Assembly (NCBI RefSeq): GCF_000167195.1 | Contig: NZ_AADV02000003.1 | Coordinates: forward strand, 112,501-176,500 | From: Crocosphaera watsonii WH 8501 | GTDB taxonomy: Bacteria > Cyanobacteriota > Cyanobacteriia > Cyanobacteriales > Microcystaceae | Direction: 5' to 3' | DNA: 64,000 nt | In this document: piece after piece, positions 13,868-49,590 of the stretch | How the letters are laid out: every line of letters starts with the position of its first letter | Position numbering within the stretch: the first letter of the stretch is position 1 | Translations under genes and position numbers: made by a program | Notes under the pieces: generated by a model | Databases searched by the model: none | What the model was told of the DNA's origin: nothing | Seen by the model: the letters and a program-made list of their open reading frames with translations, nothing else

Positions 13868-14006
13868 CAATGAAAAATGGACAACAGAAAAGATATTTAT
13901 AAGTTCTTCCCTTAATGATACGATCGCTATAACACTGAGTTATTTTTTGAACGCATACCGAATTCCTATATAATTAAAGATTAGTCTGATAAAAAGAACT
14001 TTAACC

Positions 14007-15033: not shown

Positions 15034-15075
15034 TATTTTTTATTTAAAATTTTTTTAAATTGATGATTTGATAAA

Positions 15076-32762: not shown

Positions 32763-32793
32763 AAATAAAAAAAGAGAGGTTACTAAACCCCTC
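32763..32793 (-). terminator. Rho-independent terminator of ndhH
   Basis: Read on the minus strand, an 8-bp stem (32774-32781 with 32786-32793, one mismatch) is followed by seven Ts. It lies 30 bases after the ndhH stop. Confidence 0.65.
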
Positions 32794-32822: not shown

Positions 32823-34007
32823 TTAACGATCTACAGAACCCATAATGACATCAATACTACCTAAAATTGCCATAATATCAGCAACTTTTACCCCTTTGAG
32901 TAAGTGAGGTAAAATTTGTAAATTATTAAAGTCAGGGGCGCGAATTTTCCAACGCCAGGGGAAGGGATCATTACTACCCACAATAAAGATTCCTAGTTCC
33001 CCTTTACCGCTTTCCATGCGTACATAATGTTCCCCTTCAGGAATTTTAAAAGTCGGAGCAACTTTTTTAGCTATATGTTGATAATCAAAACTATTCCATT
33101 CGGACTTTTTCCCTTCCATCATGCGCTTAGCTTCCAGGTTTTCATAGGGACCCCCTGGAATAGCTTTTAACGCCTGACGAACAATTTTAACCGACTCACG
33201 CATTTCCCGAATACGGATCAAATAACGGGCGAAACAGTCTCCGGCGGTTTCCCATTGTACTTCCCAGTCGAAGTCATCGTAACATTCGTAATGGTCCACC
33301 TTCCGCAGATCCCATTGAACCCCGGAACCCCGTAACATTGGGCCAGACAGTCCCCAGTTAATCGCTTCTTCGCGAGTAATGGTTCCTATCCCTTCCACAC
33401 GACGGCGGAAAATAGGGTTATTGGTGATCAACTTCTCGTATTCATCCACTTTGGGGTCAAAATGGTCACAGAAGTCTTCACACTTATCGATCCAACCGTA
33501 GGGTAAATCTACAGCTACCCCACCAATGCGGAAATAATTGTTATTAATTAAGCGCATTCCCGAGGCTGCTTCCCAAAGATCATAAATCATTTCCCGTTCA
33601 CGGAAAATGTAGAAAAAGGGAGTTTGTGCGCCAACATCAGCCAAAAAGGGGCCTAACCACAGTAAATGGTTAGCAATGCGGTTGAGTTCCAACATAATGA
33701 CCCGAATATATTGGGCCCGTTTAGGAACTTTGACATCCGCTAATTGTTCGGGGGCGTTAACGGTGATCGCCTCGTTGAACATTCCTGCTGCATAGTCCCA
33801 ACGACTAACATAGGGAACGTACATAACGTTGGTGCGATTTTCCGCAATTTTTTCCATCCCTCGATGAAGATACCCGATCACGGGTTCACAGTCTACCACG
33901 TCTTCTCCGTCTAAAGTGACGATTAGACGTAATACCCCGTGCATTGAGGGATGATGAGGTCCCATGTTCAAAACCATGGGTTCGGTTCTAGTTTCTATTT
34001 TCGACAT
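32823..34007 (-). CDS. ndhH: NAD(P)H-quinone oxidoreductase subunit H
   Basis: The 394-residue protein matches the 49-kDa subunit of complex I as found in cyanobacteria and plastids: [17 protein letters not shown] at residue 12, [23 protein letters not shown] near 115 and [18 protein letters not shown] at the C terminus. It contributes to the quinone-binding site of the NDH-1 complex in thylakoid membranes, which carries respiratory and cyclic electron flow. It is intact, and lies 84 bases downstream of kaiC3 on the same strand. Confidence 0.97.
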
Positions 34008-34091: not shown

Positions 34092-35606
34092 TTATTCTTC
34101 AAATAAATTGCTTAATCTTTCCACTTCGCTTTGTGCGGTGTACATAGGGGAACCGGATAAAATACCAGTTACATTACGGAAAGGTTTACCTATGTGCATT
34201 CCTTTATCATCAATAGAAAATTCTCGAATATCTTTATCGTGCATAGAACCGCGCATTTTTAAAACAGTGACACCCCGACGCATTTCCCCGTACATTTCCA
34301 CGTAACGCAGGAGAATAATTGAATCTGTGATGGTAGAAATATGAGCCTCGGTAATAGAAGATCCCCCCAATAAAGTCGGGGTGGTAGAAGTGAATAAACC
34401 TCCGATTTCTTGTTGTTTAATAAAAGAAGTTAAACCAATGATAAACTCACGAAACCCTTTTAAAGTAGAAACCCGTTCTAAAGCGGATAAACTATCCACC
34501 GCAACACGGTTCGGCTTAAAGCTTTCGATAGTTTCCTTCATATTGATCAAATGATTTTCTAACCCTGTGGTTTCCGGGTAACGGCAGACTACCTTTAACT
34601 TACCTTCCTTTTCCATTTGTTGAAAATCTACACCCCAACCGATGGCATTACGAAATAGTTGTTCTCGGCTTTCTTCAAAAGCAAAAATTAAACATCGTTC
34701 CTCATTGATAACCCCACCGGCCATAAATTCCGTCACCATTAAGGTTTTTCCGGTTCCTGTGGCCCCTGAAACTAAAATAATGGAGTCTCGGAAAAATCCG
34801 CCCCCACACATACGATCCAACTCTTCACTACCGGAAGTGATGCGAATGTTAGAGGATTTTTGTTCTAATTCGATGGCAGATAAGGGAATAATGACCACAC
34901 CACGACCAGGAACAATAGTAAAGGGATATTCTCCTTTTTGGTGATCTGTCCCCCGATATTTCAAAATTTCGATGGTACGACGGCGTTTTTCATCCGCTAA
35001 GACATTGCGTAAGATGACCACATTATCGGCCACAAATTCTTCCACCCCAAAACGACTAATATCCCCATATTCTTCCGTTCTTTCCGCCGTCATAATCGCA
35101 GTTACACCTAATTCCCGTAAAGCGGAGGCCATACGAAAAAGATCGCTTCTAACTTCTGCGCTATCGCTTAAATGGCTAAAAATTGCCCCTAAAGAGTCCA
35201 GAGACACCCGTTGGGCGTTATATTTACGAATAGCAAACTCGATACGGGCAATTAAGGCACCGAGATCGTAGTCTCCTGTCACCATCATCCGTTCTCCGGG
35301 TTGAGGAGAGGCATCCACAAAAGCCCATTTTCTCTCCATTTCCCATTCAGCAATATTCCAGCCAAACCCTCGCATATTGCGGCGTAAAGCTTTGGGTGGT
35401 TCCTCAAAAGTTACAAAAACCCCATTTTCCCCTCGTTTAATCCCTTCTGCTAAAAACTGACAAGCAAAAACGGTTTTAGAACTTCCGGCGGTTCCGGCAA
35501 CTAAGGTGGCCCGTCCTTTGGGGAGTCCCCCTTCAGACAAAAAATCAAACCCTGGAATGGAGGTTTCTAATTTCTCAATATAGTCTAGTTCGTTTTCTGG
35601 TGTCAT
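34092..35606 (-). CDS. kaiC3: KaiC3-type circadian ATPase/kinase homologue
   Basis: The 504-residue protein has two KaiC/RecA domains. The first has P-loop GTAGSSKT (canonical KaiC has GTSGTGKT); the second has GATGTGKT near 290. Both keep the catalytic Glu pair: FEEPPKAL in the first and FEESREQL in the second. The adjacent Ser-Thr autophosphorylation pair is retained in EAHISTITDS near 430. It is 15 residues shorter than KaiC of the locus at 45696, mainly at the C terminus, where KaiA docks in the canonical clock. It follows kaiA3 and kaiB3, so it is called KaiC3. Confidence 0.88.
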   Translation of the reverse strand: MTPENELDYIEKLETSIPGFDFLSEGGLPKGRATLVAGTAGSSKTVFACQFLAEGIKRGENGVFVTFEEPPKALRRNMRGFGWNIAEWEMERKWAFVDASPQPGERMMVTGDYDLGALIARIEFAIRKYNAQRVSLDSLGAIFSHLSDSAEVRSDLFRMASALRELGVTAIMTAERTEEYGDISRFGVEEFVADNVVILRNVLADEKRRRTIEILKYRGTDHQKGEYPFTIVPGRGVVIIPLSAIELEQKSSNIRITSGSEELDRMCGGGFFRDSIILVSGATGTGKTLMVTEFMAGGVINEERCLIFAFEESREQLFRNAIGWGVDFQQMEKEGKLKVVCRYPETTGLENHLINMKETIESFKPNRVAVDSLSALERVSTLKGFREFIIGLTSFIKQQEIGGLFTSTTPTLLGGSSITEAHISTITDSIILLRYVEMYGEMRRGVTVLKMRGSMHDKDIREFSIDDKGMHIGKPFRNVTGILSGSPMYTAQSEVERLSNLFEE

Positions 35607-35722
35607 TCGTGTTTTTGTTGGGAATAGAGGGTTAGAGTGGAAGTCAGGAGTTGACTGACATTTTTGTTAATTGTTCATTGTTTATTTTGCCTGTTTGTTT
35701 GTCTATTGCCAAGAAATATTAG

Positions 35723-36007
35723 TTAGTTTTTATCTTCTGAGACTAAATCTAACCCTAAGAGGACTTTTTGCGTGTTGGACATATCCCCGATAATACGTTG
35801 TAAGGGTGGAGGTAACTGTTTAATTAGGGTTGGGGTAACTAAAATTTTTTCTTTCTCGGCGGTTTGGGGTTGTTCAAGGACATCGATGATTTCTATGGTG
35901 TATTGATCTTGCAACTCTTCATGACAGATACGAAATAAGTTGGCGATCGCCCGTTGAGAGTTAATAGTGTTACCTGTAATGTAGAGTCTGAGTAGATATT
36001 TGTTCAT
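35723..36007 (-). CDS. kaiB3: KaiB3-type protein
   Basis: The 94-residue thioredoxin-like protein has the KaiB pattern YLLRLYITGNTINSQRAI at the N terminus and TPTLIKQLPPPLQRIIGD in the middle, which are residues of the metamorphic fold-switching region. It is shorter at the C terminus than KaiB at 45273, and NSQRA replaces NSVRA. It starts 5 bases after kaiA3 and ends 116 bases before kaiC3, so the three are probably one operon. Confidence 0.88.
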   Translation of the reverse strand: MNKYLLRLYITGNTINSQRAIANLFRICHEELQDQYTIEIIDVLEQPQTAEKEKILVTPTLIKQLPPPLQRIIGDMSNTQKVLLGLDLVSEDKN

Positions 36008-36012
36008 GCTGC

Positions 36013-36897
36013 TTATGGATAATCTTTTCTGGAGGAAAGGTTAATATTACTCAACCCTATATAATATTTGCGATAAAAAGAAGCTAAATACCCCATTAAT
36101 TCTAATATCATTAGTCTTCCTTCTACAACATAAGCTTGAGCTTTAGCCACAGAAGCGTCTTTACTTTTTTCTTTTAAAACTTTTGTATGAATTTCGATGG
36201 TATCTCTAGGACTTGCTTTGAGAAAACCCATTTTGTCCCCTAAACTTCGGAGTTGTTCGGAGATATTATGATCTACTTTATAGATTCTTTGCTCTAGAGA
36301 TAATTCTAATAATTTACCGTAGGTTTCTACTAATTCATCAAAAACATCAGGTAAGCTTTCTTGTAGGGGATATGATCCAAATAATCGGGCAGTGACACTG
36401 GTTTGTCCACTGGATTTAATCAGAGCATCAAGATCGGCAAACTCCTGCGCTTGATTGATTTTTTGTTCTTGCTGGTTTATTTTGACACGATATTTTTGTC
36501 GTTCAATACCTAAGCGAATCTCATAGATTAAGAGATTACTATCGAGGTTTTTGATTTGTAAATAACCATCAGCACCTAACTGAAAAGACTTTACAACTGC
36601 CCCCTCCCCTTGCCCATCCATTTTTACAATAATCGGAGTGTTGCTTACTTCTTCTCTCAGTTTGATTAGGGTGTGTAACCCCCGACTATCTGGCAAGTCT
36701 AGGTCTAGTAAAATTACATCAAACTGGTGAGCTTCTAAGAAAGTTAAACTTTCCTTTAAAGTCTTAGCACAAGTTACGGGAAAAGTCAAGCCTTTTGCTA
36801 GGGAACTATGTTGACTTTTAGAGAATAAATCCTGCAATAGTTCAATACTTTCTAATTTATCTTCTATTAATAAGACACGACAAATATCATTGGCCAT
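36013..36897 (-). CDS. kaiA3: KaiA3-type protein: receiver domain plus KaiA-like C-terminal domain
   Basis: The 294-residue protein begins with a true response-regulator receiver domain: acidic pair E12-D13, phospho-acceptor D65 in DVILLDLDLPDSRG, and the GYLQIKNLD segment with the conserved Lys. The usual conserved Thr/Ser position is Lys-Met (IIVKMDG). A coiled linker (residues 130-150) leads to a helical C-terminal half with the KaiA-like segment ILELMGYLASFYRKY near 270, equivalent to KaiA's HLGEMYRR. Canonical KaiA has only a pseudo-receiver. This is the architecture reported for non-standard KaiA3. Confidence 0.8.
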   Translation of the reverse strand: MANDICRVLLIEDKLESIELLQDLFSKSQHSSLAKGLTFPVTCAKTLKESLTFLEAHQFDVILLDLDLPDSRGLHTLIKLREEVSNTPIIVKMDGQGEGAVVKSFQLGADGYLQIKNLDSNLLIYEIRLGIERQKYRVKINQQEQKINQAQEFADLDALIKSSGQTSVTARLFGSYPLQESLPDVFDELVETYGKLLELSLEQRIYKVDHNISEQLRSLGDKMGFLKASPRDTIEIHTKVLKEKSKDASVAKAQAYVVEGRLMILELMGYLASFYRKYYIGLSNINLSSRKDYP

Positions 36898-37103
36898 TGT
36901 TAAGGATAAGTTTTTCTGTCAACTTTTTGCTTAGGAGACCTATTGGTGAGTTAATCCGCTCAGGTTACCTTAGTTTCGTGTTAGGAGTTGGGAGCAGAGG
37001 CCAATAAATTTGCTTATATCGAACTTAGCTGAGATCCTCTCCTACCACGATCATAGTCGATTTTGGCTTAATTCATCAACTACGTGCCGAATCAAGCTAG
37101 TTA

Positions 37104-37349
37104 TCAATTCTTTTTAGTCAGAAAAATAATTGATAGTCCGATAACAACAATGCCAATCAAATTGGAAGATTCTGGTATTTCGGGTGCAGATTCCGGTTCA
37201 TCTGATTGAGCGATTATGTAGAAATCGGTACTATCGGAATTAATCCTTAGTAGATCATCTGTTGCCCGTGGTGGAGTAACCAAAACCTGAATCAGTAAGC
37301 TAGTCATCAGAATCATGACTGGTTTACATGGAAATATTTTTCTTAACAT
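37104..37349 (-). CDS. Small secreted protein with PEP-CTERM-like tail
   Basis: The 81-residue protein has a hydrophobic N-terminal segment (residues 10-25), a short polar middle and a C terminus reading PEIPESSNLIGIVVIGLSIIFLTKKN-like: a Pro-Glu-rich motif, a transmembrane helix and a basic end. This is the layout of PEP-CTERM sorting signals, somewhat degenerate (PEIPES for VPEPS). The processing exosortase is not in this window. Function unknown; length is short for the class. Confidence 0.55.
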   Translation of the reverse strand: MLRKIFPCKPVMILMTSLLIQVLVTPPRATDDLLRINSDSTDFYIIAQSDEPESAPEIPESSNLIGIVVIGLSIIFLTKKN

Positions 37350-37495
37350 TTTTTTCAGTTATTCCCAAATCGACAACTTTATTAATATCAATCTTATCTT
37401 GCCGCAAATTGTCTTAAAAATTAGTTAAATAGGGTAAATTTCCGTAATAATACGCTATTGTGGCCAGAGAAAGTACAAAAATTTGCGAGTATACT

Positions 37496-37591
37496 ATGAC
37501 TGTTGACCAACTACTATTACTGATTGCTTTATTAAGCCCAGGAATTTTATTATCTGCCTTAGTAATGGGAAGCTTTGCTAAAGGTGGCTAA
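37496..37591 (+). CDS. 31-residue single-TM protein candidate
   Basis: ATG 37496 to TAA 37591 encodes MTVDQLLLLIALLSPGILLS and then ALVMGSFAKGG: one transmembrane helix and a short basic Gly tail. Size and shape are those of small photosystem, cytochrome b6f or NDH subunits, but I do not recognise it as any of them. A strong hairpin follows directly at 37607-37645, as expected for the end of a transcript. No strong Shine-Dalgarno sequence is visible. Confidence 0.5.
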   Translation: MTVDQLLLLIALLSPGILLSALVMGSFAKGG

Positions 37592-37606
37592 GCCCCTAAC
37601 AGGAGG

Positions 37607-37645
37607 TATCAGAGGGCAAGATTGCTGAATCTTCTCCCTCTGATA
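37607..37645 (+). terminator. Strong hairpin with 10-bp perfect outer stem
   Basis: TATCAGAGGG (37607-37616) pairs with CCCTCTGATA (37636-37645), and an inner AAGATT/AATCTT stem (37618-37633) extends it. It is between the small TM ORF (plus) and the convergent DUF760 gene. Confidence 0.7.
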
Positions 37646-37662
37646 AGATACCCTCGTTACCC

Positions 37663-38022
37663 TCAATCTTCTTCTGTTTGTTCATGGGATTGATTGGGGG
37701 AAATAGAATCGACGTTGGATAAGTTAGCTTCGAGATTCTTCCGTTGTTCCATTTGACTGAGAAAATATCCAGTCATCATAGCTGAAGCGAGAAGATTAGC
37801 TAAATTTTCGCGATCGGTGGTCACTTGAATGTTGAACTCTTCCAAGGGGAGCATTCCCACCAAGCCTTCTACATTCTGGGTAATGATTTGCTGAATCTCA
37901 GGACTAGCGGATTGAGCAATACGAGAGAGGGTATCAGGATGTTGTTGTTGTAGATATTGAATGAGGGTGTTTACGTTTTGTTCTTCTGGCTCGGAAGCGA
38001 AAAAATCAAAGTTGAATACCAT
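37663..38022 (-). CDS. DUF760 family protein
   Basis: The 119-residue soluble protein carries the DUF760 signature in two parts: VEGLVGMLPLEEFNIQVTTDRENL (around residues 50-75), then ASAMMTGYFLSQMEQRKNLE. The family is found in cyanobacteria and plastids. Some plant members affect plastid processes, but no function is settled to my knowledge. The N terminus and acidic C-terminal tail look disordered. Upstream are two small non-coding tracts and the 32-bp palindrome. Confidence 0.8.
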   Translation of the reverse strand: MVFNFDFFASEPEEQNVNTLIQYLQQQHPDTLSRIAQSASPEIQQIITQNVEGLVGMLPLEEFNIQVTTDRENLANLLASAMMTGYFLSQMEQRKNLEANLSNVDSISPNQSHEQTEED

Positions 38023-38253
38023 TAGAACTCCAAAATTGGGGTTGACTTATGTTCCAATTATATACCCATACTTTTTTACCGAAATGATACGGGAGCATCA
38101 AAGCCATAGTGCCGCTACGGGTCAGTCAAAAGGCACTCATGCACTCATGCAAAAAGATGGATTGGCAAGGATTTCAGGATTTTGTTACCGAAAATAATTG
38201 GGTCTAAACCCGCATTTCTCACAAACTGATCAGTAATCAGCTAGAGGTTAGAT

Positions 38254-38285
38254 GTGCCATTTTAAGCGATCGCTTAAAATGGCAC
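38254..38285. repeat. 32-bp perfect palindrome centred on a HIP1 octamer
   Basis: Half-site GTGCCATTTTAAGCGA; the central 8 bases are GCGATCGC. It lies between the DUF760 promoter region and the desaturase 3' end. It may be a terminator or protein-binding site. It is unrelated to the 28-bp palindromes. Confidence 0.8.
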
Positions 38286-38387
38286 ACTGTTATTTTTTAC
38301 TCGCCCCTCAAATCAAGGTTTAACTCAGACTACATAATGGTTTGAGTTTTATAGCAATTATCTTCTTGACTTAGCTAGATTACAGTT

Positions 38388-39482
38388 TCAGGTTTTCAAA
38401 ATCGCCTCAGTCGATTGACGAAAGGATGAGATCGAAACCAAACGGTTTGAGTCAGCACTCCATAAAAGGAACTGGGAACAGTCCGCCAAATCTCTCATTC
38501 GTAGGGTCTTCACATCTGAGAGCAGATGACTATTTTCACGATGACAGGCTGCAAGATGATAATTGGGAATTCTTTCACAAAGATGATGAATATTGTGATA
38601 GCCGATGTCGGCAGTAAACCATCTGAGAATAGCGGGTAATTCTAAATAACTGCTGCCCTGAACTGCACCTAGAATATAGTTCCAGTCGGCTGTTTTGTGA
38701 GCATAAGCTCCCTCAAAAATGTGCTGTACGAAAAAGAGCCAGATGAAAATCGTCGCAGAACAACTGAGTGTAATGGAGTAAATACTCCAAAACAACCCAA
38801 CTCCCCATAAATGGCTCAGAAAAATCCAGCTACCAACCACACAAATATTGTTGAGCAGGAGATCCCAAAATTCAGTAGCCGACTGCCAATGTTTGGATTG
38901 GTGGGCAGATATCGTCTGTGCTAAGTTAAACTCTGAACCTTTCTTGAAATCAGTGAATATATGCTGGATAAACTCATAAACTTCCATTATTAAAATGAGC
39001 CTGGGCTTGATGGCAAGGTAGAAAAAGCCGCCAGGAATCGCCATTAATGGATGTGGCAGGAGTTCATATAGTCTTTGATTGAACGGATCGAGCTTAGAAA
39101 ACTCTTCAGTAGATAAAAAATCGGCAACGCCTCGATATCGTTCCCAGTCGCCATTGGTTTTGTGATGGTAGGCATGATCTCTAGACCAGCCATATTGGGG
39201 AATTGCATTGATTACACCTAGCACGAACCCAAAAATACGGTTAGCCGATTTTGACTGAAAGAGAGAATAATGTCCGCAATCGTGCATCAAAGAGAAACAG
39301 CGAAGTGAAAAGAGAATCAGCAGAACAATGATCGGGGGGAGAAGCCATAGAGAAATAGACGCTACTTTTACCGCTAAAATCCATAAAAGAACATAAGGCA
39401 CAACGGTATTGAGAATTTGATAAGTTGCCCGCAGGTTACTGCTGTTGATGTAGGTGGTCAAAACGAACTCAGCTTTATTCAT
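38388..39482 (-). CDS. Fatty acid desaturase family protein
   Basis: The 364-residue membrane protein has the three His boxes of di-iron desaturases: HDCGH near 68 (LMHDCGHYSLF), HAYHH near 104 and HNIHH near 297. About four hydrophobic segments lie between. Family members insert double bonds or hydroxyl groups into acyl chains or carotenoids. The substrate is not evident; the sequence does not clearly match DesA, DesB, DesC or DesD as I know them. It overlaps the upstream 73-residue ORF by 8 bases, and GC is slightly higher than its neighbours. Confidence 0.85.
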   Translation of the reverse strand: MNKAEFVLTTYINSSNLRATYQILNTVVPYVLLWILAVKVASISLWLLPPIIVLLILFSLRCFSLMHDCGHYSLFQSKSANRIFGFVLGVINAIPQYGWSRDHAYHHKTNGDWERYRGVADFLSTEEFSKLDPFNQRLYELLPHPLMAIPGGFFYLAIKPRLILIMEVYEFIQHIFTDFKKGSEFNLAQTISAHQSKHWQSATEFWDLLLNNICVVGSWIFLSHLWGVGLFWSIYSITLSCSATIFIWLFFVQHIFEGAYAHKTADWNYILGAVQGSSYLELPAILRWFTADIGYHNIHHLCERIPNYHLAACHRENSHLLSDVKTLRMRDLADCSQFLLWSADSNRLVSISSFRQSTEAILKT

Positions 39483-39696
39483 GAGTGCCTCTTTGGGGGG
39501 TTAAGTTAGGTTGAAACTCTGCCCAACGGTGTTGCACCTGCGCATAACAGCCGGCAGGAGAAATCTTGAGGTTTTTTAGCAGGTTAATATAGACAACACC
39601 ATTACCAAGCACCAGAAGCACAATCGCCTGAGTTGGGACATAGGTGTTAATTGCATTTAGCAATGTTGTGACGACTTCTGGTTGCAGTTCCAGCAC
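39475..39696 (-). CDS. Small protein co-transcribed with the desaturase
   Basis: A 73-residue ORF with one hydrophobic segment near residues 20-38 (TQAIVLLVLGNGVVYINLL). Its 3' end overlaps the desaturase start by 8 bases, which suggests translational coupling. I do not recognise the family. A 27-base Pro/Arg-coding tail near the overlap is polar. It could be a membrane adapter or the remnant of a larger gene. Confidence 0.45.
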   Translation of the reverse strand: MLELQPEVVTTLLNAINTYVPTQAIVLLVLGNGVVYINLLKNLKISPAGCYAQVQHRWAEFQPNLTPQRGTHE

Positions 39697-39809
39697 TTGC
39701 AGGTACGCTTCTAGGTGATTTCTGATAAAGGAGATCCCTTACCATCCCCCCTAACCCCCCTTTTTAAGGGGGGAATAATTGGAAAAGCAGGTATATTCAA
39801 GTGTGGAAA

Positions 39810-40052
39810 TCACCCTACTTGCGCTTGTGGAATGAATACTTGATCATAGGTCAAAGTATCCACCTCCCAGTCAATGCAGGAAGGGATGGTATCGACAACA
39901 GTGCATACGACCATTCCCCTGCCTGTGTTTAGATAACCGTTCCAAGCAATGTATCCGATCAATAAAAAATTTTGTTGGATGAATTGCTTTTGCCAATAGC
40001 CAAAACATCCCTGCCAGACACTATCGTGGGGTTGCATCATCCCTATCTTCAT
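39810..40052 (-). CDS. Hypothetical protein, 80 residues
   Basis: The ORF begins MKIGMMQPHDSVWQGCFGYW and is rich in Trp, Tyr and Gln, with no membrane segment. It ends IPQAQVG. A few Cys residues (3) are spaced widely. I do not recognise it. Codon use is plausible, but the start lacks a strong ribosome-binding site, so it may be a gene or a fragment. The adjoining 39740-39775 DNA contains a short CCCCCCTTTTTAAGGGGGG hairpin. Confidence 0.4.
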   Translation of the reverse strand: MKIGMMQPHDSVWQGCFGYWQKQFIQQNFLLIGYIAWNGYLNTGRGMVVCTVVDTIPSCIDWEVDTLTYDQVFIPQAQVG

Positions 40053-40157
40053 GATTTTTTCCAGTTATAAATTTTGATAATTGATCGATAAATCAATCTC
40101 TCCTTGAACTTTTCGGGTTGCTTATACCATATTTTTTAACCTAGTAATCACTTCCTC

Positions 40158-40286
40158 TTAAGAAGAGTAATCTGACTGAGACGAAGTTCCCAGTCCCATC
40201 ACAATGCCCCAAGTCAAAGATTCCCAATTTTGAAGAAAGGAGCGAATAATAAAGCCATAAAGTTGATTAGCTAAGCGGATCGCCAT
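40158..40286 (-). CDS. 42-residue ORF candidate
   Basis: ATG at 40286 to TAA at 40158. The sequence begins MAIRLANQLYGFIIRSFLQN, followed by WESLTWGIVMGLGTSS; one short hydrophobic stretch. Codon use is like the neighbours, but no ribosome-binding site or homologue is recognised. It could be a small membrane peptide or a remnant of a longer gene. Confidence 0.3.
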   Translation of the reverse strand: MAIRLANQLYGFIIRSFLQNWESLTWGIVMGLGTSSQSDYSS

Positions 40287-40340
40287 GACACAGGTTAAGG
40301 GACTTCCAGAGAATCAATTCCTCAGCACAAGCTTTTAGTG

Positions 40341-40808
40341 CTACTGTGGAAACTGATCAATTTCAAAATACTGATGAAATTTATTGGTAACTTCGAGAAG
40401 ATAAGAACGTCCGCTCTCTTGACGACGTTTACGCACAAAACCCATCTCAACTAATTCCTGAACGTGCTGATAGGCTGTACTTCCCCTTAGTTCGATTAAT
40501 TCGGTCTGAACAATTGGATTTTTCAGGGCAATGGCCGCTAAGGTTCTTAAAGCACCTTTTCCGAGTTCTGCCGGAATAATATCATCGGTGAGATCATCAA
40601 AAACTGAGCGCAATTGTAGACTGTAACCTGTTTCAGTTTCTACTACTTCTAAGGCACTGTCACGATAAGCATAATCAGAAATTAACTCCATCATCGCTTC
40701 TTGTGCTGTATCTACTTCACATTCGGCACATTGAGCAATATCCATTAAGCTTAGGGGTTGACCTTTGAGATAAAGAATCGCTTCTATTTTCGTCGCTAGT
40801 TTCATCAT
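40341..40808 (-). CDS. scpB: Segregation and condensation protein B
   Basis: The 155-residue protein has the ScpB winged-helix pattern: KIEAILYLKGQPLSLMDIA at the N terminus and ELGKGALRTLAAIALKNPIVQTELIELRGS near 80-110. It ends in the second winged helix, VRKRRQESGRSYLLE. ScpB with ScpA and SMC forms the bacterial condensin that compacts and segregates the chromosome. The family is usually 160-200 residues, so this is at the short end. It is preceded by the unknown gene at 40823 with a 14-base gap. Confidence 0.9.
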   Translation of the reverse strand: MMKLATKIEAILYLKGQPLSLMDIAQCAECEVDTAQEAMMELISDYAYRDSALEVVETETGYSLQLRSVFDDLTDDIIPAELGKGALRTLAAIALKNPIVQTELIELRGSTAYQHVQELVEMGFVRKRRQESGRSYLLEVTNKFHQYFEIDQFPQ

Positions 40809-40822
40809 AATCTATTCTATCT

Positions 40823-41302
40823 CTAATCAGAGAAAATATCGATTTCAGTAGGGTTTAGATTTAGTTCTATAGAGTGACCATATTCAATAAAATCAAGGGG
40901 TTGGGTTAAAATTTCTAGGGTTGAGTCGTCTTGAAAATGGTTCGGTTTCGTTTCAGGATGAGGATAATAAATTAGTCCAGTATATTTGCCTTTGTTGTAA
41001 ATAACCTGACAAAAAGAAAATGAAAAAGTTTCTGCTGGTGAGCCAAGATTCCATTTTACAAGTTCAAAAGTATATTGAGGATTACACAGTTTAAACTTAT
41101 AAGGACTAATCTTAACGTTTAAAGTTCCTGGGAAAAAAGAAGAAATGTCTAATCCTCGCTGTTTAAAGAAAGGAGTTTGCATTTCAATGGTTCCTTGAGA
41201 ATAAGGACTATCTTTTGCTATTCCTGAAGCAACTTGATGGCCTTCCCTAATAGTGCCTTTAATGGTTATCCATTCTGGGGTCATGGCTGTTGGTTTGTCC
41301 AA
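40823..41302 (-). CDS. Hypothetical protein, 159 residues
   Basis: A soluble beta-rich protein. The segment FFPGTLNVKISPYKFKL near 58-74 recalls the GTLNVKL motif of archaeal-type (DUF120) riboflavin kinases, but the rest cannot be aligned by eye and the Mg/CTP residues are not evident. Its stop is 14 bases from scpB, so it may be co-transcribed. No other motif was seen. The assignment stays open. Confidence 0.6.
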   Translation of the reverse strand: MDKPTAMTPEWITIKGTIREGHQVASGIAKDSPYSQGTIEMQTPFFKQRGLDISSFFPGTLNVKISPYKFKLCNPQYTFELVKWNLGSPAETFSFSFCQVIYNKGKYTGLIYYPHPETKPNHFQDDSTLEILTQPLDFIEYGHSIELNLNPTEIDIFSD

Positions 41303-41398
41303 ATTCCTCTTTAAGTGTTATATTACCATAGATAATAATTTTTGATTATATTTGTTGATAAAATTTACCATACTAACTTTTTGAATAATAGTTTAATT

Positions 41399-42466
41399 AT
41401 GGATGTTAGAACCTGCGGAATCAATTTAAACCATTGGTATGTGGTGGCACAAAGTAGAGAAATTACCACAAAACCCATAGAAGTTAAGCTATGGTATCGC
41501 TCCATTGTCCTTTATCGAGATAGTACGGGAAAAATTCATGGTTTAGATAATCGTTGTCCTCATCGTCAGGTTAAACTCAGTGAGGGTAAAGTGGTTGGAA
41601 ATTCTCTGGAATGTGCTTATCATGGTTGGCAATTTAATGGCCAAGGAAGTTGTACTTTTATCCCTTATTTAAACTCGAATCTTAATGGAAAGTTTTCCAA
41701 GAATCAAGCTTTACCAAGGAGTCAGATTGAGAGTTACCCTGTCCAAGAAGACGATGGTTTTGTCTGGATATTTTTAGGAGAAAAACACCTATTAGAGTCT
41801 AAACAAGTTCAACCAATGAGTATTCCTGAATGGCAGCATCTTAATTATATTGGGACAGTTTCTGTAATCGATTGTCAGGCTCATTTTTCTTTTCTTATTG
41901 AAAATTTAATGGATATGTATCATGGACATCTTCATGATGATTATCAAGCTTGGACAGATGCCAAATTAAAAGAATTACTCACTACTGAAGAAGGAGTTAA
42001 GGGATTATACGAAGCACAAAGTTATTATAAAATTGATAAGATTTGGTCAATTTCTCAGCTATTCTTTCCTCGCTTTCGTTCTTTACATCCCGAACCTTTA
42101 ATGGTTAATTATTGTTATCCTCACTGGCAATCGACTTTAGGGAAAGATTTTACAATATATTGTTTATTTTGTCCCATTAGTCTTACTCATACCAAAGCTT
42201 ACTTAATTCATTTTACCTCTTTAAATGCTTTTTGGCGGTTACATAAACTACCAAAATGGTTTAGACAGTTTATCAAGGATAGACTCTATGGAACAGCACA
42301 AACCATGTTAGATGGATTGGTTGAGCAAGATATCATTATGATAGAACAAGAACAACAAGCTTATGACCAACAACTCCGAGAACCAACCTATGAAATAAAC
42401 CCCACTATTCCTGCTGTTCAAAAATTTATCAAAAAACAAGCAGAAAAAGAATCAATCATAATTTAG
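41399..42466 (+). CDS. Rieske [2Fe-2S] oxygenase (PaO-like)
   Basis: Start at ATG 41399 (MDVRTCG), not the upstream in-frame ATG/TTG in AT-rich DNA. The 355-residue protein has an N-terminal Rieske domain (CPHRQVKLSEG ... CAYHGWQF near 55-80) and a C-terminal mononuclear-iron domain with DMYHGHLHDDY near 178, giving the His ligands. It resembles pheophorbide a oxygenase and other cyanobacterial ring hydroxylases. Substrate unknown. Not adjacent to other pigment genes. Confidence 0.82.
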   Translation: MDVRTCGINLNHWYVVAQSREITTKPIEVKLWYRSIVLYRDSTGKIHGLDNRCPHRQVKLSEGKVVGNSLECAYHGWQFNGQGSCTFIPYLNSNLNGKFSKNQALPRSQIESYPVQEDDGFVWIFLGEKHLLESKQVQPMSIPEWQHLNYIGTVSVIDCQAHFSFLIENLMDMYHGHLHDDYQAWTDAKLKELLTTEEGVKGLYEAQSYYKIDKIWSISQLFFPRFRSLHPEPLMVNYCYPHWQSTLGKDFTIYCLFCPISLTHTKAYLIHFTSLNAFWRLHKLPKWFRQFIKDRLYGTAQTMLDGLVEQDIIMIEQEQQAYDQQLREPTYEINPTIPAVQKFIKKQAEKESIII

Positions 42467-42600
42467 AATTTAGAATTACCCTAGAGACTTGAAACTATTT
42501 TTTTGTGTCATTTTTGGCAAAATGTACATCAAGAGCAAAATCAAATAAAGGAAGATGGTATAATCCACAAAGATAACCAATATGACGATTATAACCAACG

Positions 42601-43239
42601 ATGGAAAATGCCACTCCTAGTTTTATTTCTCCTCAAGTATCTAGGGAAGAATTGATATTAGAGATCCCATTAAAATTAGGTGTATTAGCATCAGGAAGTG
42701 GGACTAACTTTGAAGCGATCGCTAATGCTATCAATCAACAACAATTAAACGCGACAATTCCCCTCTTAATTTACAATAATCCTCAAGCTAAAGTCAAGGA
42801 AAAAGCAACAGCTTTAAACATTGAGTCCAAACTCCTCAATCATCGAGAATTTAAGGGACGAGAAGACTTAGATCAAGCTATTGTAGATTTGTTCAAATCT
42901 TATCAGGTTGATTGGGTAATTATGGCAGGTTGGATGAGAATTGTTACCCCAGTGTTATTAGAAGCATTTCCCAATCATGTTATCAATATTCATCCTAGTT
43001 TGTTACCTAGTTTCAAAGGAATTAAGGCAATAGAACAAGCTTTAGAAGCAAAAGTTAAAATTACAGGATGTACAGTTCATCTTGCCAGTTTAGAGGTGGA
43101 TAGTGGACCGATTTTATTACAAGCAGCAGTCCCTATCTTACCTAACGATACCCTAGAGACCTTACACAATAGAATTCAAATAGAAGAACATAAAATTTTT
43201 CCCCTTGCTATTGCCTTAGCTGCTAAACTATACTATTAA
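42601..43239 (+). CDS. purN: Phosphoribosylglycinamide formyltransferase
   Basis: The 212-residue protein shows the GAR transformylase motifs: ASGSGTNFEAI (phosphate loop), MAGWMRIVTP, INIHPSLLPSFKGIKA with the catalytic His, and VDSGPILLQ with the catalytic Asp. It uses 10-formyl-THF in purine synthesis. An N-terminal tail of about 25 residues precedes the core. It lies 16 bases upstream of the hydrolase gene and may be in one transcript with it. Confidence 0.95.
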   Translation: MENATPSFISPQVSREELILEIPLKLGVLASGSGTNFEAIANAINQQQLNATIPLLIYNNPQAKVKEKATALNIESKLLNHREFKGREDLDQAIVDLFKSYQVDWVIMAGWMRIVTPVLLEAFPNHVINIHPSLLPSFKGIKAIEQALEAKVKITGCTVHLASLEVDSGPILLQAAVPILPNDTLETLHNRIQIEEHKIFPLAIALAAKLYY

Positions 43240-43255
43240 GATAAACCAATAAACT

Positions 43256-44173
43256 ATGAATTATCGTCCAGATTTTATACTATTTGCTCAACATGGATGG
43301 GCTGATACGAACGAAGAAATAAGGAAATTAGCCACTAAATTAGCCAATGATAAAACCCTGATTATTAGCCCCAATTTAGGTTGCCTAAAAACTTGGTTAA
43401 GTATGGAACCATTAATTGAGAAGGTCACTGAACAAGCTGAAGAAATTAGCCAAAAATATCCCCAAACCCCGTGGCGAATTATGGGTCACTCCATGGGGGG
43501 CTTAATTTGGCTAGAAATTCTCCATCAAAATCCCCAATGGTGGGGAAAAATTCATTCTTTGGTCTTAATTGGATCTCCCGTTGGGGGGGCAGATTTAGCC
43601 AGAATTATTGACCCATTATCCATTGGCGTTGGTGTTGCTGCCGACTTAGGAAAAAACCGCCGTTTGCAAGCAGATAGAATCACAAAAATTGTGCCAACAT
43701 TAGTGATTGCCGGTAACAGTGATAATGGTAGCGACGGTACTATTCCCATTTCATCAACCAAATTAACCTATAGTTATTTTGTCTGCTTACCCAATATTTC
43801 CCATAGTCAATTAAAAAACCATCCTACCTTAGTAGATGTTATTGAAAAATTTTGGGAAACTTCTCCAACCCCGGCCTTATTTGAAAAGGATTTTCCTACA
43901 GTTTTGATCGAAAGACTACAATTAATTCCAGGGATGACCGATGCCCATTCTAGAGACTTTGAAAAAGCCAAAGCTTACCTTAATTTTGAAAGAGGAATTT
44001 CTATTAAATTGTGGAAAAATCCTTTAAACGTTCTTCATGTTTTTGTGTCCAGTGAACAAGAACAATGTTTATATGCCGGGTTTGTGGGGTGGATACATTC
44101 AGACGGATTATATCAAGGGTTAGAAGCTATTCATCAAGACTATTATGAGTTAGTCATTCACGGACTTGATTAA
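43256..44173 (+). CDS. Alpha/beta hydrolase
   Basis: The 305-residue protein has an alpha/beta hydrolase N-terminal domain with nucleophile motif GHSMGG near 75, the oxyanion region FAQHGWADTNEE near 10 and a possible catalytic His in NISHSQLKNH near 185. The C-terminal 90 residues lack a recognised fold. It sits between purN and kaiA, 69 bases before kaiA. Hydrolases next to kaiA occur in related cyanobacteria, but no functional link is established. Confidence 0.78.
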   Translation: MNYRPDFILFAQHGWADTNEEIRKLATKLANDKTLIISPNLGCLKTWLSMEPLIEKVTEQAEEISQKYPQTPWRIMGHSMGGLIWLEILHQNPQWWGKIHSLVLIGSPVGGADLARIIDPLSIGVGVAADLGKNRRLQADRITKIVPTLVIAGNSDNGSDGTIPISSTKLTYSYFVCLPNISHSQLKNHPTLVDVIEKFWETSPTPALFEKDFPTVLIERLQLIPGMTDAHSRDFEKAKAYLNFERGISIKLWKNPLNVLHVFVSSEQEQCLYAGFVGWIHSDGLYQGLEAIHQDYYELVIHGLD

Positions 44174-44242
44174 TTTTCTCTGTGCATAACAAACCAGAGA
44201 CTTTTATGGTAACTTCTTAGAGGGGAGTTTTACTCTCACTAT

Positions 44243-45172
44243 TTGTGTTTATCTATCCACAGACCATTGCAGACGCGACTATCCATTTGTCTTTGTAGCA
44301 GTGATAAACCTTTCACTCAGTTATTGGCCAATCATCTGAGTGGCGATCGCTATCGTCTACATATCATCGATCAAGTAGAAGAGTTAATACCTTTCTTAAA
44401 GGCTCATAGTGAAACTATAGATTGTTTAATTGTCAGAGAGGAAGCATCTATTCTGCCCTTATTCAACCAACTGTATGAAAGAGGAACCCTCTTACCAGTT
44501 ATTATTGTCGAGAAGGGGGAAGATCCATCCATAGCTTTGGCTAATGTAGAATCACCCACTTTTCTCTACCATAGTGCTGAGGTGCGTCATGGGGTGAGCC
44601 AGTTGGGGGATGTTCAGATGACTATTGATCGTGCCATCACCAAGTTTTTGCACTTGGGGCCTAGTTGTTGTCTTGCTGATCGCTCCCTGTCTGCTCAAGG
44701 AGATATTGATACAGAAAAACATCAGAGTTTTTTACTGTTACAACAGCGTCGTCTAGCGGAAAAACTCAAAGAAAGATTAGGTTATTTAGGAGTATATTAT
44801 AAGCGAAATCCTCAATATTTTTATCGCAATCTTTCCCCAGAAGATAAACAAGCCTTACTGAAAGAATTAATGACTAATTATCGAGAGATAATTTTAAATT
44901 ATTTTGGCGAAGATGCCGACATTAATCAAGCTATTGATCAATTTGTCAATCAAGCTTTCTTTGCTGATATTTCTGTGTCCCGTGTCTTAGAACTGCACAT
45001 GGAACTGATGGACGAATTCTCACAACAACTCAAATTAGAAGGACGCAGTGAAGAAATTCTGCTAGACTATCGCCTAACCATTATTGACATTTTGGCCCAT
45101 TTGGGAGAAATGTATCGTCGTTGCATTCCTAGAGGAGATTTACTTTTTGATTTATTAAATCAAATGGATTAA
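44243..45172 (+). CDS. kaiA: Circadian clock protein KaiA
   Basis: The protein of about 309 residues has an N-terminal pseudo-receiver domain with no phospho-acceptor Asp, and a C-terminal four-helix domain with the conserved KaiA segments ERLGYLGVYYKRNPQYFYRNL near 178 and EEILLDYRLTIIDILAHLGEMYRR near 270. KaiA dimers bind the KaiC C-terminal tail and stimulate its autophosphorylation. The start codon is uncertain: the frame opens with TTG 44243, with another TTG at 44267. GAGGGGAG at 44220-44227 may be a distant ribosome-binding site. Confidence 0.9.
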   Translation: MCLSIHRPLQTRLSICLCSSDKPFTQLLANHLSGDRYRLHIIDQVEELIPFLKAHSETIDCLIVREEASILPLFNQLYERGTLLPVIIVEKGEDPSIALANVESPTFLYHSAEVRHGVSQLGDVQMTIDRAITKFLHLGPSCCLADRSLSAQGDIDTEKHQSFLLLQQRRLAEKLKERLGYLGVYYKRNPQYFYRNLSPEDKQALLKELMTNYREIILNYFGEDADINQAIDQFVNQAFFADISVSRVLELHMELMDEFSQQLKLEGRSEEILLDYRLTIIDILAHLGEMYRRCIPRGDLLFDLLNQMD

Positions 45173-45272
45173 AGTAGTGAAGGACGAGAAAACTCTACTA
45201 AAATAATTCTTATTGTTCCCTAAACCTGTAAAATTTGTCTAATGATTTTTCTTGCTCTATCAATATGTGGCC

Positions 45273-45587
45273 ATGATTGACTTCAAAAAAACCTATGTTC
45301 TCAAACTCTACGTCGCTGGTAATACCCCCAACTCAGTGAGGGCTTTAAAAACTTTAAAAAATATCCTCGAAGACGAATTTAAGGGAGTTTACGCATTGAA
45401 AGTTATTGATGTTTTGAAAAATCCACAATTAGCCGAAGAAGATAAAATTTTGGCAACACCAACCTTGGCGAAAATTTTACCACCTCCTGTACGTAAAATT
45501 ATTGGGGATCTTTCCGATAGGGAGAAAGTTTTAATTGGTTTGGATCTTCTCTATGAGGAGATTCGGGAACGGGAGAATGATCCATAA
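45273..45587 (+). CDS. kaiB: Circadian clock protein KaiB
   Basis: Start at ATG 45273 ([21 protein letters not shown]); the longer TTG start at 45252 adds 7 unlike residues. The 104-residue protein has [54 protein letters not shown], and the acidic C-terminal tail of KaiB. It switches fold, binds the KaiC CI ring and sequesters KaiA. The kaiA-kaiB gap is 100 bases; kaiB-kaiC is 108. Confidence 0.96.
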
Positions 45588-45695
45588 ATACCTAGTTTTT
45601 AACGACAGTGTTTAAATTAGATTTTTTTCCATATTACCCTTGCATTTTTTTATAACCTTTCATACTTTCACTTATAAAACTATTATAAATAGGTC

Positions 45696-47255
45696 ATGAA
45701 TCAGCCGCTAAAGAGTGAAAATCAACCACAACAATTAACCCCTAAAGGGGTTCGTAAAATTCGGACAATGATCGAAGGCTTAGATGAGATTACCCACGGT
45801 GGTTTACCCCTGGGAAGAACGACTTTAGCCAGTGGGACATCGGGAACAGGAAAGACCCTTTTGGCGGTACAATTTCTTTGTCATGGTATTAAGTATTTCG
45901 ATTATCCGGGGCTATTTGTTACTTTTGAAGAGTCTCCCCGTGATATTATTGAAAACGCCTATAGTTTTGGTTGGGACTTACAACAATTGATCGATGAAGG
46001 TCAATTATTTATTTTAGATGCTTCCCCCGATCCCGAAGGTCAAGAAGTGGTGGGAAGTTTTGATTTATCTGCTTTGATCGAACGCATACAATACGCTATT
46101 AATAAGTACAACGCTAAGTTAGTTTCCATCGATTCGGTTACTGCAGTCTTTCAACAATACGATGCAGCTTCTGTGGTGAGACGGGAGATTTTTCGCTTAG
46201 TTGCCCGTTTAAAACAGTTAGGGGTGACTTCTATTTTAACCACGGAAAGGGTGGACGAATATGGACAAATTGCCCGTTTTGGGGTCGAAGAATTTGTTTC
46301 TGATAATGTTATTATTGTTCGGAATGTTTTGGAAGGGGAACGTCGTCGCCGTACCATTGAAATTCTCAAATTACGGGGAACAACCCACATGAAAGGAGAA
46401 TATCCTTTTACTATTACCAATGACGGTATTAATATCTTCCCATTGGGGGCTATGAGATTGACACAAAGATCATCTAATGCGCGCAGTTCTTCTGGTGTTA
46501 AAACCCTAGATCAAATGTGTGGTGGCGGGTTCTTTAAAGACTCCATTATCCTCGCTACAGGGGCAACCGGAACGGGCAAAACCTTACTGGTTAGTAAATT
46601 CTTAGAAGAGGGTTGTCGTCAAGGAGAAAGGGCGATTTTATTCGCCTACGAAGAGTCTCGGGCCCAGTTATCTCGTAATGCTTTTTCTTGGGGTATTGAC
46701 TTTGAAGAAATGGAACAAAAAGGACTCTTAAAACTGTTATGTACCTATCCAGAATCTGCTGGTTTAGAAGACCATTTACAAATTATTAAATCAGAAATTT
46801 CTGAATTTAAACCTTCAAGAATTGCTATTGACTCTTTATCAGCATTAGCTAGGGGTGTTACTAATAATGCTTTCCGTCAATTTGTGATCGGAGTTACGGG
46901 GTATGCTAAACAGGAAGAAATTACGGGTTTCTTTACCAATACCACCGATCAATTTATGGGGGCCCATTCCATTACGGAATCTCATATTTCTACTATTACC
47001 GACACTATTTTAATGTTGCAATATGTAGAAATTCGGGGAGAAATGTCACGGGCCATTAATGTCTTTAAAATGAGGGGTTCATGGCACGATAAAGGTATCC
47101 GAGAATACATGATCAATCAAGATGGGCCTATTATCCAAGACTCCTTCCGAAATTACGAACGGATTATTAGTGGTTCTCCCAGTCGTATTAGTGTGGATGA
47201 AAAAACCGAATTATCTCGTATTGTTCGGGGTGTGAAAGATAAGACAGAGGAGTAA
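45696..47255 (+). CDS. kaiC: Circadian clock ATPase/kinase KaiC
   Basis: The 519-residue protein is the same length as KaiC of the model unicellular clock. CI has P-loop GTSGTGKTLLA and FEESPRDI; CII has GATGTGKTLLV and YEESRAQL. The phosphorylation pair Ser-Thr is in SHISTITDT near 431-432. The C-terminal A-loop and tail continue through SGSPSRISVDEKTELSRIVRG, which KaiA binds. All core clock residues appear intact, so this locus can probably oscillate. Confidence 0.97.
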   Translation: MNQPLKSENQPQQLTPKGVRKIRTMIEGLDEITHGGLPLGRTTLASGTSGTGKTLLAVQFLCHGIKYFDYPGLFVTFEESPRDIIENAYSFGWDLQQLIDEGQLFILDASPDPEGQEVVGSFDLSALIERIQYAINKYNAKLVSIDSVTAVFQQYDAASVVRREIFRLVARLKQLGVTSILTTERVDEYGQIARFGVEEFVSDNVIIVRNVLEGERRRRTIEILKLRGTTHMKGEYPFTITNDGINIFPLGAMRLTQRSSNARSSSGVKTLDQMCGGGFFKDSIILATGATGTGKTLLVSKFLEEGCRQGERAILFAYEESRAQLSRNAFSWGIDFEEMEQKGLLKLLCTYPESAGLEDHLQIIKSEISEFKPSRIAIDSLSALARGVTNNAFRQFVIGVTGYAKQEEITGFFTNTTDQFMGAHSITESHISTITDTILMLQYVEIRGEMSRAINVFKMRGSWHDKGIREYMINQDGPIIQDSFRNYERIISGSPSRISVDEKTELSRIVRGVKDKTEE

Positions 47256-47556: not shown

Positions 47557-49590
47557 ATGTCATCTTTGTCTACCTCAAACTTAACCGCTTCCAAGCGCAA
47601 CCGAGCAGTTGCGCTACGTAATTATTTTTCACCCTTTGGCAACAAACTGATCGAGGCCGGATACGCCGGGCCAGATCAGATGAAACAGGCCCTTGTGGAA
47701 ACTCGTAAAACCGGTCGTCCCTTAACCGATGTGTTACAGGTGATGACTGGGGAACCCTTATCTCCAGATTTAATACGACAATATAAAAAACACCATTTAT
47801 TTGAACTAAAAATCCTCTATGGTGTAGACTCCATCGATCCCGAAGTCTCTCCTGTTGCGGATCTCCAGATGGCTGAATTAATTAATTCCTTAATCTCTTT
47901 TGATATTTGTCGTCGTCATAAAATCTTACCCTTATCTCGACACGAAGGAGATCCTCCTTCTGTTTTGGTGGCCATGGTTGACCCCGATAACCTTGCGGCA
48001 CAAGACGACTTGAACCGCATCTTGAGGGCGAGAAACCTAGACCTACGGCGTATGGTCATAACCCAAGAAGATTATGACAGCTTATTAGAACAGTATCATG
48101 AAATTCAACAGGAGCTTGATGTAGAGAAAGAACGCATCTCTAAAGAAGAAGCCCTCAATAAAATGGGGGATCTCACCGACATTGTGGGTAATCTCGATGC
48201 AAACATAAGTGAAGAAGAAGATGAGAGCCACGATGCCCTAGATGCTAACGATGCTGGTCAGGCACCGGTCATTAATTTAGTCAACAAAATCCTCGCTAAA
48301 GCCCTCCAGGAAGGCACTTCCGATATTCATGTTGAACCCCAAGAAGAAACCCTTGGCGTTCGTTTCCGTAAAGATGGGGTACTCCAACAGGCTTTTGATC
48401 CCCTACCACGTAAAGTCACTGCGGCGGTGGTAGCACGGTTCAAAATTATGGCGGATCTCGATATTGCTGAACGTCGTCTTCCTCAAGATGGTAAGATTCG
48501 ACGCATTTATCAAGGTCGAAAAGTGGATTTTCGGGTTAATACCTTACCCAGTCGTTACGGGGAAAAAGTTTGTTTACGGATCTTAGATAACTCTGCGACT
48601 CAGTTAGGGTTAGATAAACGAATTACTAACCAGGAAACCCTAGATATTGTCCGAGACTTGGCTAGTCGTCCCTTTGGCTTATTTTTGGTTACGGGGCCAA
48701 CCGGTTCGGGTAAATCTACCAGTTTATATTCAGTTTTAGCCGAAAGAAATAATCCTGGGGTAAATATTAGTACCGCCGAAGATCCCATCGAATACTCTTT
48801 ACCCGGCATTACCCAAGTTCAGGTTATTCGCGAAAAAGGGATGAACTTTGCCTCTATTTTACGGGCATTTATGCGACAAGATCCCGACGTTATTCTGGTG
48901 GGGGAAACTCGGGACGTAGAAACGGCAAAAACTGCGATCTAAGCAGCCTTAACCGGTCACTTAGTTTTAACCACCCTGCACACCAACGATGCCCCTGGGG
49001 CAGTTGCTCGTCTGGATGAAATGGGGGTTGAACCTTTTATGATTTCTGGGGCGTTATTAGGGGTACTGGCGCAACGGTTAATGCGTCGGGTGTGTAGTGA
49101 ATGTCGAGTGCCTTACAAACCAACCAAAGAAGAATTAGCCCGTTTTGGTTTATCTGCTTCTAATGATGAGGAAATGACCATCTATAAGGCTAATAAATTG
49201 ACCTCAGAGGAAATAGCCGAAGCCAAAGAAAATGGCTCTATCTGTCCAAAATGTGGGGGTAGTGGCTACAAGGGACGGGTTGGGGTTTATGAGGTAATGC
49301 GCAATACTGAACGCATTCAAAGCCTGATTAACGAAGGAGCCACCACCGATCGCCTCAAAGAAGCTGCCGTGGAAGAAGGGATGATCACCATCCTTGCCTA
49401 TAGTTTACAACTGGTCCAAGAAGGTTACACCACCCTTGAAGAAGTGGAACGGGTAACGTTTACGGATACGGGACTTGAGGCGGAATTAAAAGCAAAGCGC
49501 AAGAGTTCTCTGGAGTGCAAAACCTGTTCTGCGATACTCGAACCGGAGTGGATGGACTGTCCTTATTGTATGACTCCCAGATTTACTTAA
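47557..49590 (+). pseudogene. pilB: Type IV pilus assembly ATPase PilB, with in-frame stop codon
   Basis: The frame is continuous for 678 codons except for TAA at 48940-48942, where the family consensus TAKTAIEAALTGHLVLTTLHTNDAP predicts GAA. Before it are the N-terminal GspE domain, Walker A GPTGSGKST near 384 and Walker B (RQDPDVILVGETRDVETA). After it are the His box and the zinc motif CSECRVP ... CPKCGGSG. PilB powers pilus extension. Truncation at residue 461 removes the His box and zinc site. Both halves have normal codon use. Confidence 0.92.

Follow-up and report, generated by a model that had tools for sequence, protein, structure and literature searches.

The 64,000-nucleotide stretch of the Crocosphaera watsonii WH 8501 genome analyzed here (the window) carries two full sets of kai clock genes 7.3 kb apart, kaiABC at 44243-47255 on the plus strand and kaiA3-kaiB3-kaiC3 at 34092-36897 on the minus strand. 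We regard it as likely, if well short of certain, that the minus-strand set encodes a KaiA3B3C3 oscillator that works beside KaiABC, that the receiver domain of its KaiA3 is a retained pseudo-receiver whose ancestral input from a kinase has been lost, and that the closeness of the two sets is recent. An earlier note on this DNA had already described two such sets, and all six genes are indeed open reading frames (ORFs) at the coordinates it gave:

36013..36897, minus strand: kaiA3, with a receiver-like N-terminal domain (residues ~8-124) and a KaiA-like C-terminal helical domain (~165-290) (ORF, Pfam, model, Foldseek)
36505..36876, minus strand: receiver-like domain of KaiA3, residues 8-131, with E12, D13 and D65 kept, M93 at the Thr/Ser position and I115 at the Lys position (alignment, model)
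35723..36007, minus strand: kaiB3 (ORF, Pfam)
34092..35606, minus strand: kaiC3, with the P-loops GTAGSSKT in CI and GATGTGKT in CII (ORF, Pfam, alignment, tree)
44243..45172, plus strand: canonical kaiA, with a KaiA_N pseudo-receiver and a KaiA C-terminal domain; its TTG start is that of the mechanically longest frame (ORF, Pfam)
45252..45587, plus strand: canonical kaiB, likely start 45273 (ORF, Pfam, length in a relative)
45696..47255, plus strand: canonical kaiC (ORF, Pfam)

The plus-strand genes follow the order kaiA-kaiB-kaiC and encode proteins with KaiA_N plus KaiA, KaiB and KaiC matches above the Pfam cut-offs, which identifies them as canonical KaiABC; the KaiB and KaiC families score far above their cut-offs in both sets. 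The internal ATG at 45273 is the more likely start of the canonical kaiB, because the KaiB of a relative measures 104 amino acids (aa). Across the 6.24 Mb genome (the window being part of a 347 kb contig), only two proteins have two KaiC domains, and both are encoded in the window (KaiC and KaiC3); a 541-aa protein elsewhere has a single KaiC-domain match.

The assignment of the second set to the KaiA3B3C3 type holds: kaiB3 lies directly downstream of the chimeric kaiA3 (a gap of 5 bp, followed by 116 bp between kaiB3 and kaiC3), and a quick tree places KaiC3 in a group that gathers 32/32 cyanobacterial KaiC3 rows with support 100, apart from canonical KaiC. The proximity of the sets might suggest that the second arose by local duplication of kaiABC in the window lineage, an origin to which we give practically no credence since it is contradicted by this tree. 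KaiC3 is 55% identical to the neighboring KaiC, as against 65-97% to other cyanobacterial KaiC3 and up to 75% to those of Chloroflexota. The two sets share the A-B-C order, a KaiA-like C-terminal fold, a pseudo-receiver-like N-terminus and a KaiC with two ATPase domains, but the N-terminus of the canonical KaiA belongs to another family (KaiA_N) than that of KaiA3 (Response_reg). The KaiA_N domain of canonical KaiA is not known to have a phospho-acceptor. As the earlier note had it, the alignment shows that KaiC3 retains both Glu pairs and the Ser-Thr site, and that its CI P-loop reads GTAGSSKT, where the canonical KaiC of the window has GTSGTGKT. This change was rejected as a local peculiarity, since the last Gly is replaced by Ala or Ser in 51/63 KaiC3-type rows (23/25 of the cyanobacterial ones); no publication on the Walker A motif of KaiC3 was found in the literature searched. 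ATP hydrolysis activity is reported for the Synechocystis KaiC3 (PMC6989803). According to Schmelling et al. 2017, the KaiA of Synechococcus had no effect on KaiC3 from Cyanothece PCC 7424 and Microcystis (PMC5520375), a result that agrees with KaiC3 having a partner of its own.

The window set is thus a further example of an already published system. In Synechocystis, Koebler et al. 2024 reported that KaiA3 promotes the phosphorylation of KaiC3, together with a damped rhythm in vitro and a coupling with KaiABC (PMC11372060). The set of Synechocystis sp. PCC 6803 has the same chimeric KaiA3, the same kaiB3 directly 3′ of it and a KaiC3 that likewise has the two Glu pairs and the Ser-Thr site (PMC11372060), and differs from the window, where kaiC3 comes after kaiB3 and kaiABC lies 7.3 kb away. 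The nearest named relative is the Crocosphaera metagenome-assembled genome (MAG) MO_202.B2, whose KaiA3 is 85% identical to that of the window. By analogy with Synechocystis, KaiA3 would dimerize via its C-terminal helical domain, bind the tail of KaiC3 and stimulate its autophosphorylation; KaiB3 would bind KaiC3 and remove KaiA3, a sequestration step that is a proposal in Synechocystis too; and the phosphorylation of KaiC3 would cycle and couple to KaiABC.

The KaiA-like nature of the C-terminal domain of KaiA3, another claim of the earlier note, is weakly borne out by structure. Foldseek with the whole-protein model retrieved no KaiA among the matches listed (the best 50 of 1741) because these were filled by receivers, and the C-terminal domain was therefore folded and searched alone. 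Its model (predicted local distance difference test score 88.8) finds KaiA C-terminal domains as its six best PDB matches, at E-values of 0.03-0.21. At the sequence level, the Pfam KaiA family stays below its cut-off (E-value 0.018), a PDB sequence profile gives an E-value of 0.011, and the profile-profile comparison with KaiA a probability of 24% (E-value 8e-4).

As for the N-terminal domain, Response_reg matches residues 8-124 with an E-value of 1e-12, and the listed PDB matches of the whole KaiA3 model are mainly receiver proteins, which points to a receiver fold. The predicted strands end at residues 65, 93 and 114, where the active-site residues belong. KaiA3 had been described as carrying a true receiver with D65; the aspartate is there, together with the acidic pair E12 and D13, but Met93 stands at the Thr/Ser position and Ile115 at that of Lys, so that two of the five active-site residues are lost. 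Under the definition of Bourret et al. 2025, the loss of a single one of five residues (DD, D, T/S and K) makes a receiver a pseudo-receiver (PMC12632262), and the domain of the window KaiA3 is one by this standard. In the clade around the window, as resolved in a tree of the C-terminal domain (Shimodaira-Hasegawa-like approximate likelihood ratio test 93), Lys is missing in 13/13 rows, Synechocystis salina among them, while across the 48 rows of the tree it is kept in 33, with three changes; this tree is independent of the receiver columns because it was built from the C-terminal domain alone. In 5/5 genomes searched of the Synechocystis-like genus (a genus-level sample rather than PCC 6803 specifically) the receiver lacks the Lys as in the window and has Leu at this position, but Ser or Thr where the window has Met. 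More broadly, Lys is found in 20/49 cyanobacterial KaiA3 rows, window included, and all five residues in 15/49, as opposed to 28/35 and 23/35 of the non-cyanobacterial rows. These counts come from 102 KaiA3 rows minus 11 duplicates and 7 receiver-less rows, and near-identical Microcystis and Roseiflexus rows remain among them. A 2026 review calls the Synechocystis KaiA3 receiver “genuine” and infers a possible cognate kinase (PMC13421787), and the published Synechocystis account speaks of D65, the word lysine being absent from its main text (PMC11372060). No report of the Lys loss or of operon-adjacent kinases was found in the limited literature searched.

The phosphorylation switch of the window KaiA3 thus probably no longer works, as judged from these residues. 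The dN/dS (ratio of nonsynonymous to synonymous substitution rates) of the receiver part is only 0.08-0.24 between the window and five relatives, indicating purifying selection and, therefore, a pseudo-receiver that is kept rather than decaying. The domain would be a receiver fold without a phospho-switch, retained for structure or for the binding of a partner or ligand. A competing explanation is that the receiver is still a working phospho-input, in which D65 is phosphorylated by an unlinked (orphan) histidine kinase and the absence of Thr and Lys is made up for. The purifying selection would suit it, as would the acidic pair and D65, kept in 8/8 Crocosphaera-type rows (window, L067-L073); moreover, cyanobacterial kinases are often unlinked. 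However, this explanation has to accommodate Met and Ile at two active-site positions, and D65 itself gives way to Asn or Ser in near relatives (G105, of a neighboring genus, with Asn; L074 and L075; Microcystis with Ser, the residue also of Roseofilum), which is hard to square with a clade-wide phospho-switch. On balance we find a working input unlikely.

The suggestion that the receiver ties the second set to a sensor kinase fares no better, given the two lost residues and the absence of any match to our histidine kinase profile among the window ORFs of at least 70 aa. The same profile, built in this analysis, was applied around the kaiA3 loci of relatives (80 of 94 were kept in the contig scan, whose search patterns came from cyanobacterial sequences), a kinase counting as near when within 500 bp of the operon. 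Operons from Chloroflexota, Chromatiaceae, Planctomycetota and others mostly match the window in gene order and KaiA3 architecture but, unlike it, often adjoin a histidine kinase: 26/42 non-cyanobacterial loci have a near one (L112 and L129, which bear no phylum name, being counted among the 42), against 2/38 cyanobacterial loci. Ten of the 26 lie at most 50 bp upstream of the operon or overlap it. Control ORFs of at least 200 aa, more than 3 kb away at the same loci, included kinases in 13/161 non-cyanobacterial and 1/174 cyanobacterial cases. Pfam confirmed both cyanobacterial kinases and 20/20 of the non-cyanobacterial ones checked, that of L120 by its ATPase domain only; those of L117, L119, L133, L134 (a short fragment), L135 and L144 were called by our profile alone. 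All five receiver residues occur in 17/22 non-cyanobacterial receiver rows with a near kinase versus 6/13 without, and at four kinase-linked loci KaiA3 has no receiver at all. The Chromatiaceae hold both states: L116, L119, L125, L133 and L134 combine an intact site with a near kinase, and L118, L121, L136 and L143 a damaged site with none (L128 likewise, but at a contig end). KaiA3 in five non-cyanobacterial genera has already been published; in the literature searched, no publication was found that deals with KaiA together with Chromatiaceae and Chloroflexi, and Koebler et al. 2024 was the only one on KaiA, Roseiflexus and a histidine kinase.

These counts are compatible with a broader scenario, which in our estimation may equally well prove right or wrong: the KaiA3 clock would have begun as a two-component-gated timer, in which a sensor histidine kinase encoded beside kaiA3 governed the strength of the KaiC3 drive through phosphorylation of the KaiA3 receiver. 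Relatives outside the cyanobacteria probably still have such real phospho-inputs, fed by a kinase encoded next to the operon. The unicellular cyanobacteria would have lost the linked kinase, their receiver becoming a pseudo-receiver independently of that of KaiA, and some Chromatiaceae would have done likewise; kinase linkage and catalytic residues would have disappeared on the way to the window lineage, in an order that we infer. If this is true, the Synechocystis oscillator would represent a remnant, derived and free of a kinase, and Chloroflexota and purple sulfur bacteria would be the places to look for kinase control. Our survey makes the kinase inferred in the 2026 review doubtful for the clade as a whole; it also points to organisms in which kinase and intact receiver occur together, where the input to the KaiA3B3C3 clock becomes directly testable.

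Several observations weigh against the interpretation of the window KaiA3 as a pseudo-receiver that lost its kinase, or against the oscillator itself. Its D65 and acidic pair are intact, and phosphorylation stays possible because a receiver without Lys may still accept phosphate. Loci L127 and L141 lack the Lys, and L099, L103 and L112 one other residue, yet all have a near kinase, and six intact non-cyanobacterial rows have none. The association between linked kinase and intact receiver is a loose one: a tree test had too few independent pairs, three on well-supported branches, with a non-significant median p of 0.25. It drew on 48 of the 102 KaiA3 rows, L127 and L141 not being included, and treated sites with Asn in the acidic pair or Ala at the Thr position as intact. 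In the 42 rows used after six short-flank rows were left out, a kinase accompanied 17 intact and 0 non-intact sites and was missing from 8 intact and 17 non-intact ones. Nor is a relaxation of selection on the receiver clear: the dN ratio of receiver to C-terminal domain is 1.6-3.4 in six Crocosphaera pairs, a range that overlaps with the 0.9-2.4 of eight intact-site pairs (2.9 in a ninth pair, which involves L029 and its non-intact site). Relaxed selection is, in consequence, an unclear candidate, with low dN/dS and some ratios above those of intact-site lineages. Lastly, the sequence likeness of the C-terminal domain to KaiA is weak in all three comparisons given above, and the oscillator in Crocosphaera is proposed by analogy with Synechocystis.

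The input part of KaiA3 varies further outside the cyanobacteria, where a PAS domain replaces the receiver or comes after it in some proteins. L126, L127, L132, L137-L140, L144 and L145 encode KaiA3-like C-terminal domains with a PAS, or a receiver plus PAS, input, which suggests that this part has been exchanged between lineages. L112 contains, at 12909-15101 and 215 bp 3′ of kaiC3, a hybrid histidine kinase whose N-terminal domain is KaiB, which makes it a candidate for a SasA-like output kinase linked to a KaiA3 clock.

The earlier note also regarded the closeness to kaiABC as informative on how the second system arose. It is not, as the closeness looks like a recent rearrangement, found in 2/9 genomes of the genus: the window genome and MAG MO_202.B2 carry the two KaiC genes on one contig at a distance of 8-10 kb. 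Of the remaining seven genomes, six place them on separate contigs and one shows a single KaiC match. Elsewhere, each set has its own neighbors. ORFs of ~208, 640 and 700 aa precede kaiA3 in L068, L071, L072/L162, L160 and L161 (in L072, the only one run against Pfam, a pseudouridine synthase, a PAS-GGDEF-EAL protein and a Na/H exchanger), and DUF760, scpB, a Rieske protein, purN and a hydrolase precede kaiABC in L155, L157, L158 and L159, as they do in G105, of another genus. The two contexts join in the window, whose Na/H exchanger lies on another contig, at

36898..37662, no strand: junction of the kaiA3 and kaiABC contexts, a putative rearrangement within the stretch (locus comparison)

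Two transposase-type ORFs occur at 31060-32585. An assembly artefact is an unlikely cause of the closeness, as the same layout recurs in the MAG. This recurrence could also be read as selection keeping the sets together because they are functionally linked, for instance by co-regulation or a shared dosage, and a table for Cyanothece ATCC 51142 lists kaiA as cce_0424 and, 11 locus tags away, a gene under the name kaiB3 (cce_0435), with kaiB2-kaiC2 at cce_4715-4716, in a naming that may differ from ours (PMC3854555). Still, with the sets on opposite strands, unrelated genes between them, different neighbors in the other stretches fetched and separate contigs in most of the genus, we hold a functional link to be quite improbable, and prefer the recent rearrangement.

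Nor is the compact operon unusual, as had been supposed. Koebler et al. 2024 describe kaiA3B3 as usually followed by kaiC3, Synechocystis and Microcystis being the exceptions (PMC11372060), and in our named sample the three genes are contiguous in at least 26/38 cyanobacterial and at least 34/42 other loci, contig ends making these lower bounds. In a first sample, only 6 of the 22 genomes that contain KaiA3 and KaiC3 had the two adjacent, and in the other 16 they lay apart or on separate contigs, because the sample is dominated by two genera (g2 and g3, Synechocystis and Microcystis records) and family f8. The quick KaiC3 tree has three changes of the separated state, f8 being a case outside the published exceptions, which indicates that kaiC3 became detached secondarily, on three or more occasions; together with the contiguity counts, three-gene contiguity is therefore probably the older state. 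A Calditrichia MAG (L130, 6465-12938) packs a tandem of two kaiA-kaiB-kaiC-like sets, along with additional kaiB genes, into 6.5 kb, so that its sets lie closer together than those of the window.

Degenerate kaiA3 sequences were seen at L052 and L053, in two genomes of 3 Mb that lack intact psbA-type genes (G183 and G268), beside the gene that adjoins kaiA3 in G143. No KaiC3 was found in these genomes, which do have canonical KaiA and KaiC matches; they are probably diatom endosymbionts, in which the second clock seems to have been lost first. The literature searched offered nothing useful on kaiC in diatom endosymbionts. In a family without Photo_RC matches (L037-L041; G240, G321, G325, G236 and G077), KaiA3-like C-terminal domains follow a PAS domain in four cases and a receiver in one (weak, E-value 1e-6); these five genomes gave no KaiB match and no KaiC3 match at an E-value of 1e-20, and their weaker KaiC-family matches resemble RecA-type proteins in size.

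The minus-strand genes of the window are followed by two further features:

32823..34007, minus strand: complex I 49 kDa subunit gene, which we take to be ndhH, 84 bp 3′ of kaiC3 on the same strand (ORF, locus comparison)
32774..32793, minus strand: terminator-like hairpin 3′ of ndhH (consensus match only)

The complex I gene also adjoins kaiC3 in six other Crocosphaera-type loci (L067-L072). By consensus matching, no terminator-like site was listed in the gaps between kaiA3, kaiB3, kaiC3 and ndhH, and two weak ones fall inside the kaiC3 frame. A four-gene unit kaiA3-kaiB3-kaiC3-ndhH tying the second clock to respiration is possible, because the only terminator-like site listed outside that frame lies after ndhH. 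Beyond kaiC, two pilus-assembly-type genes (47557-49590 and 50834-52047) each read as two shorter ORFs, which may be real or a sequencing error, and relative L155 has single longer ORFs in their place. A perfect 15-pair palindrome with the center GCGATCGC lies at 38253-38286, between the DUF760 gene and a desaturase gene.

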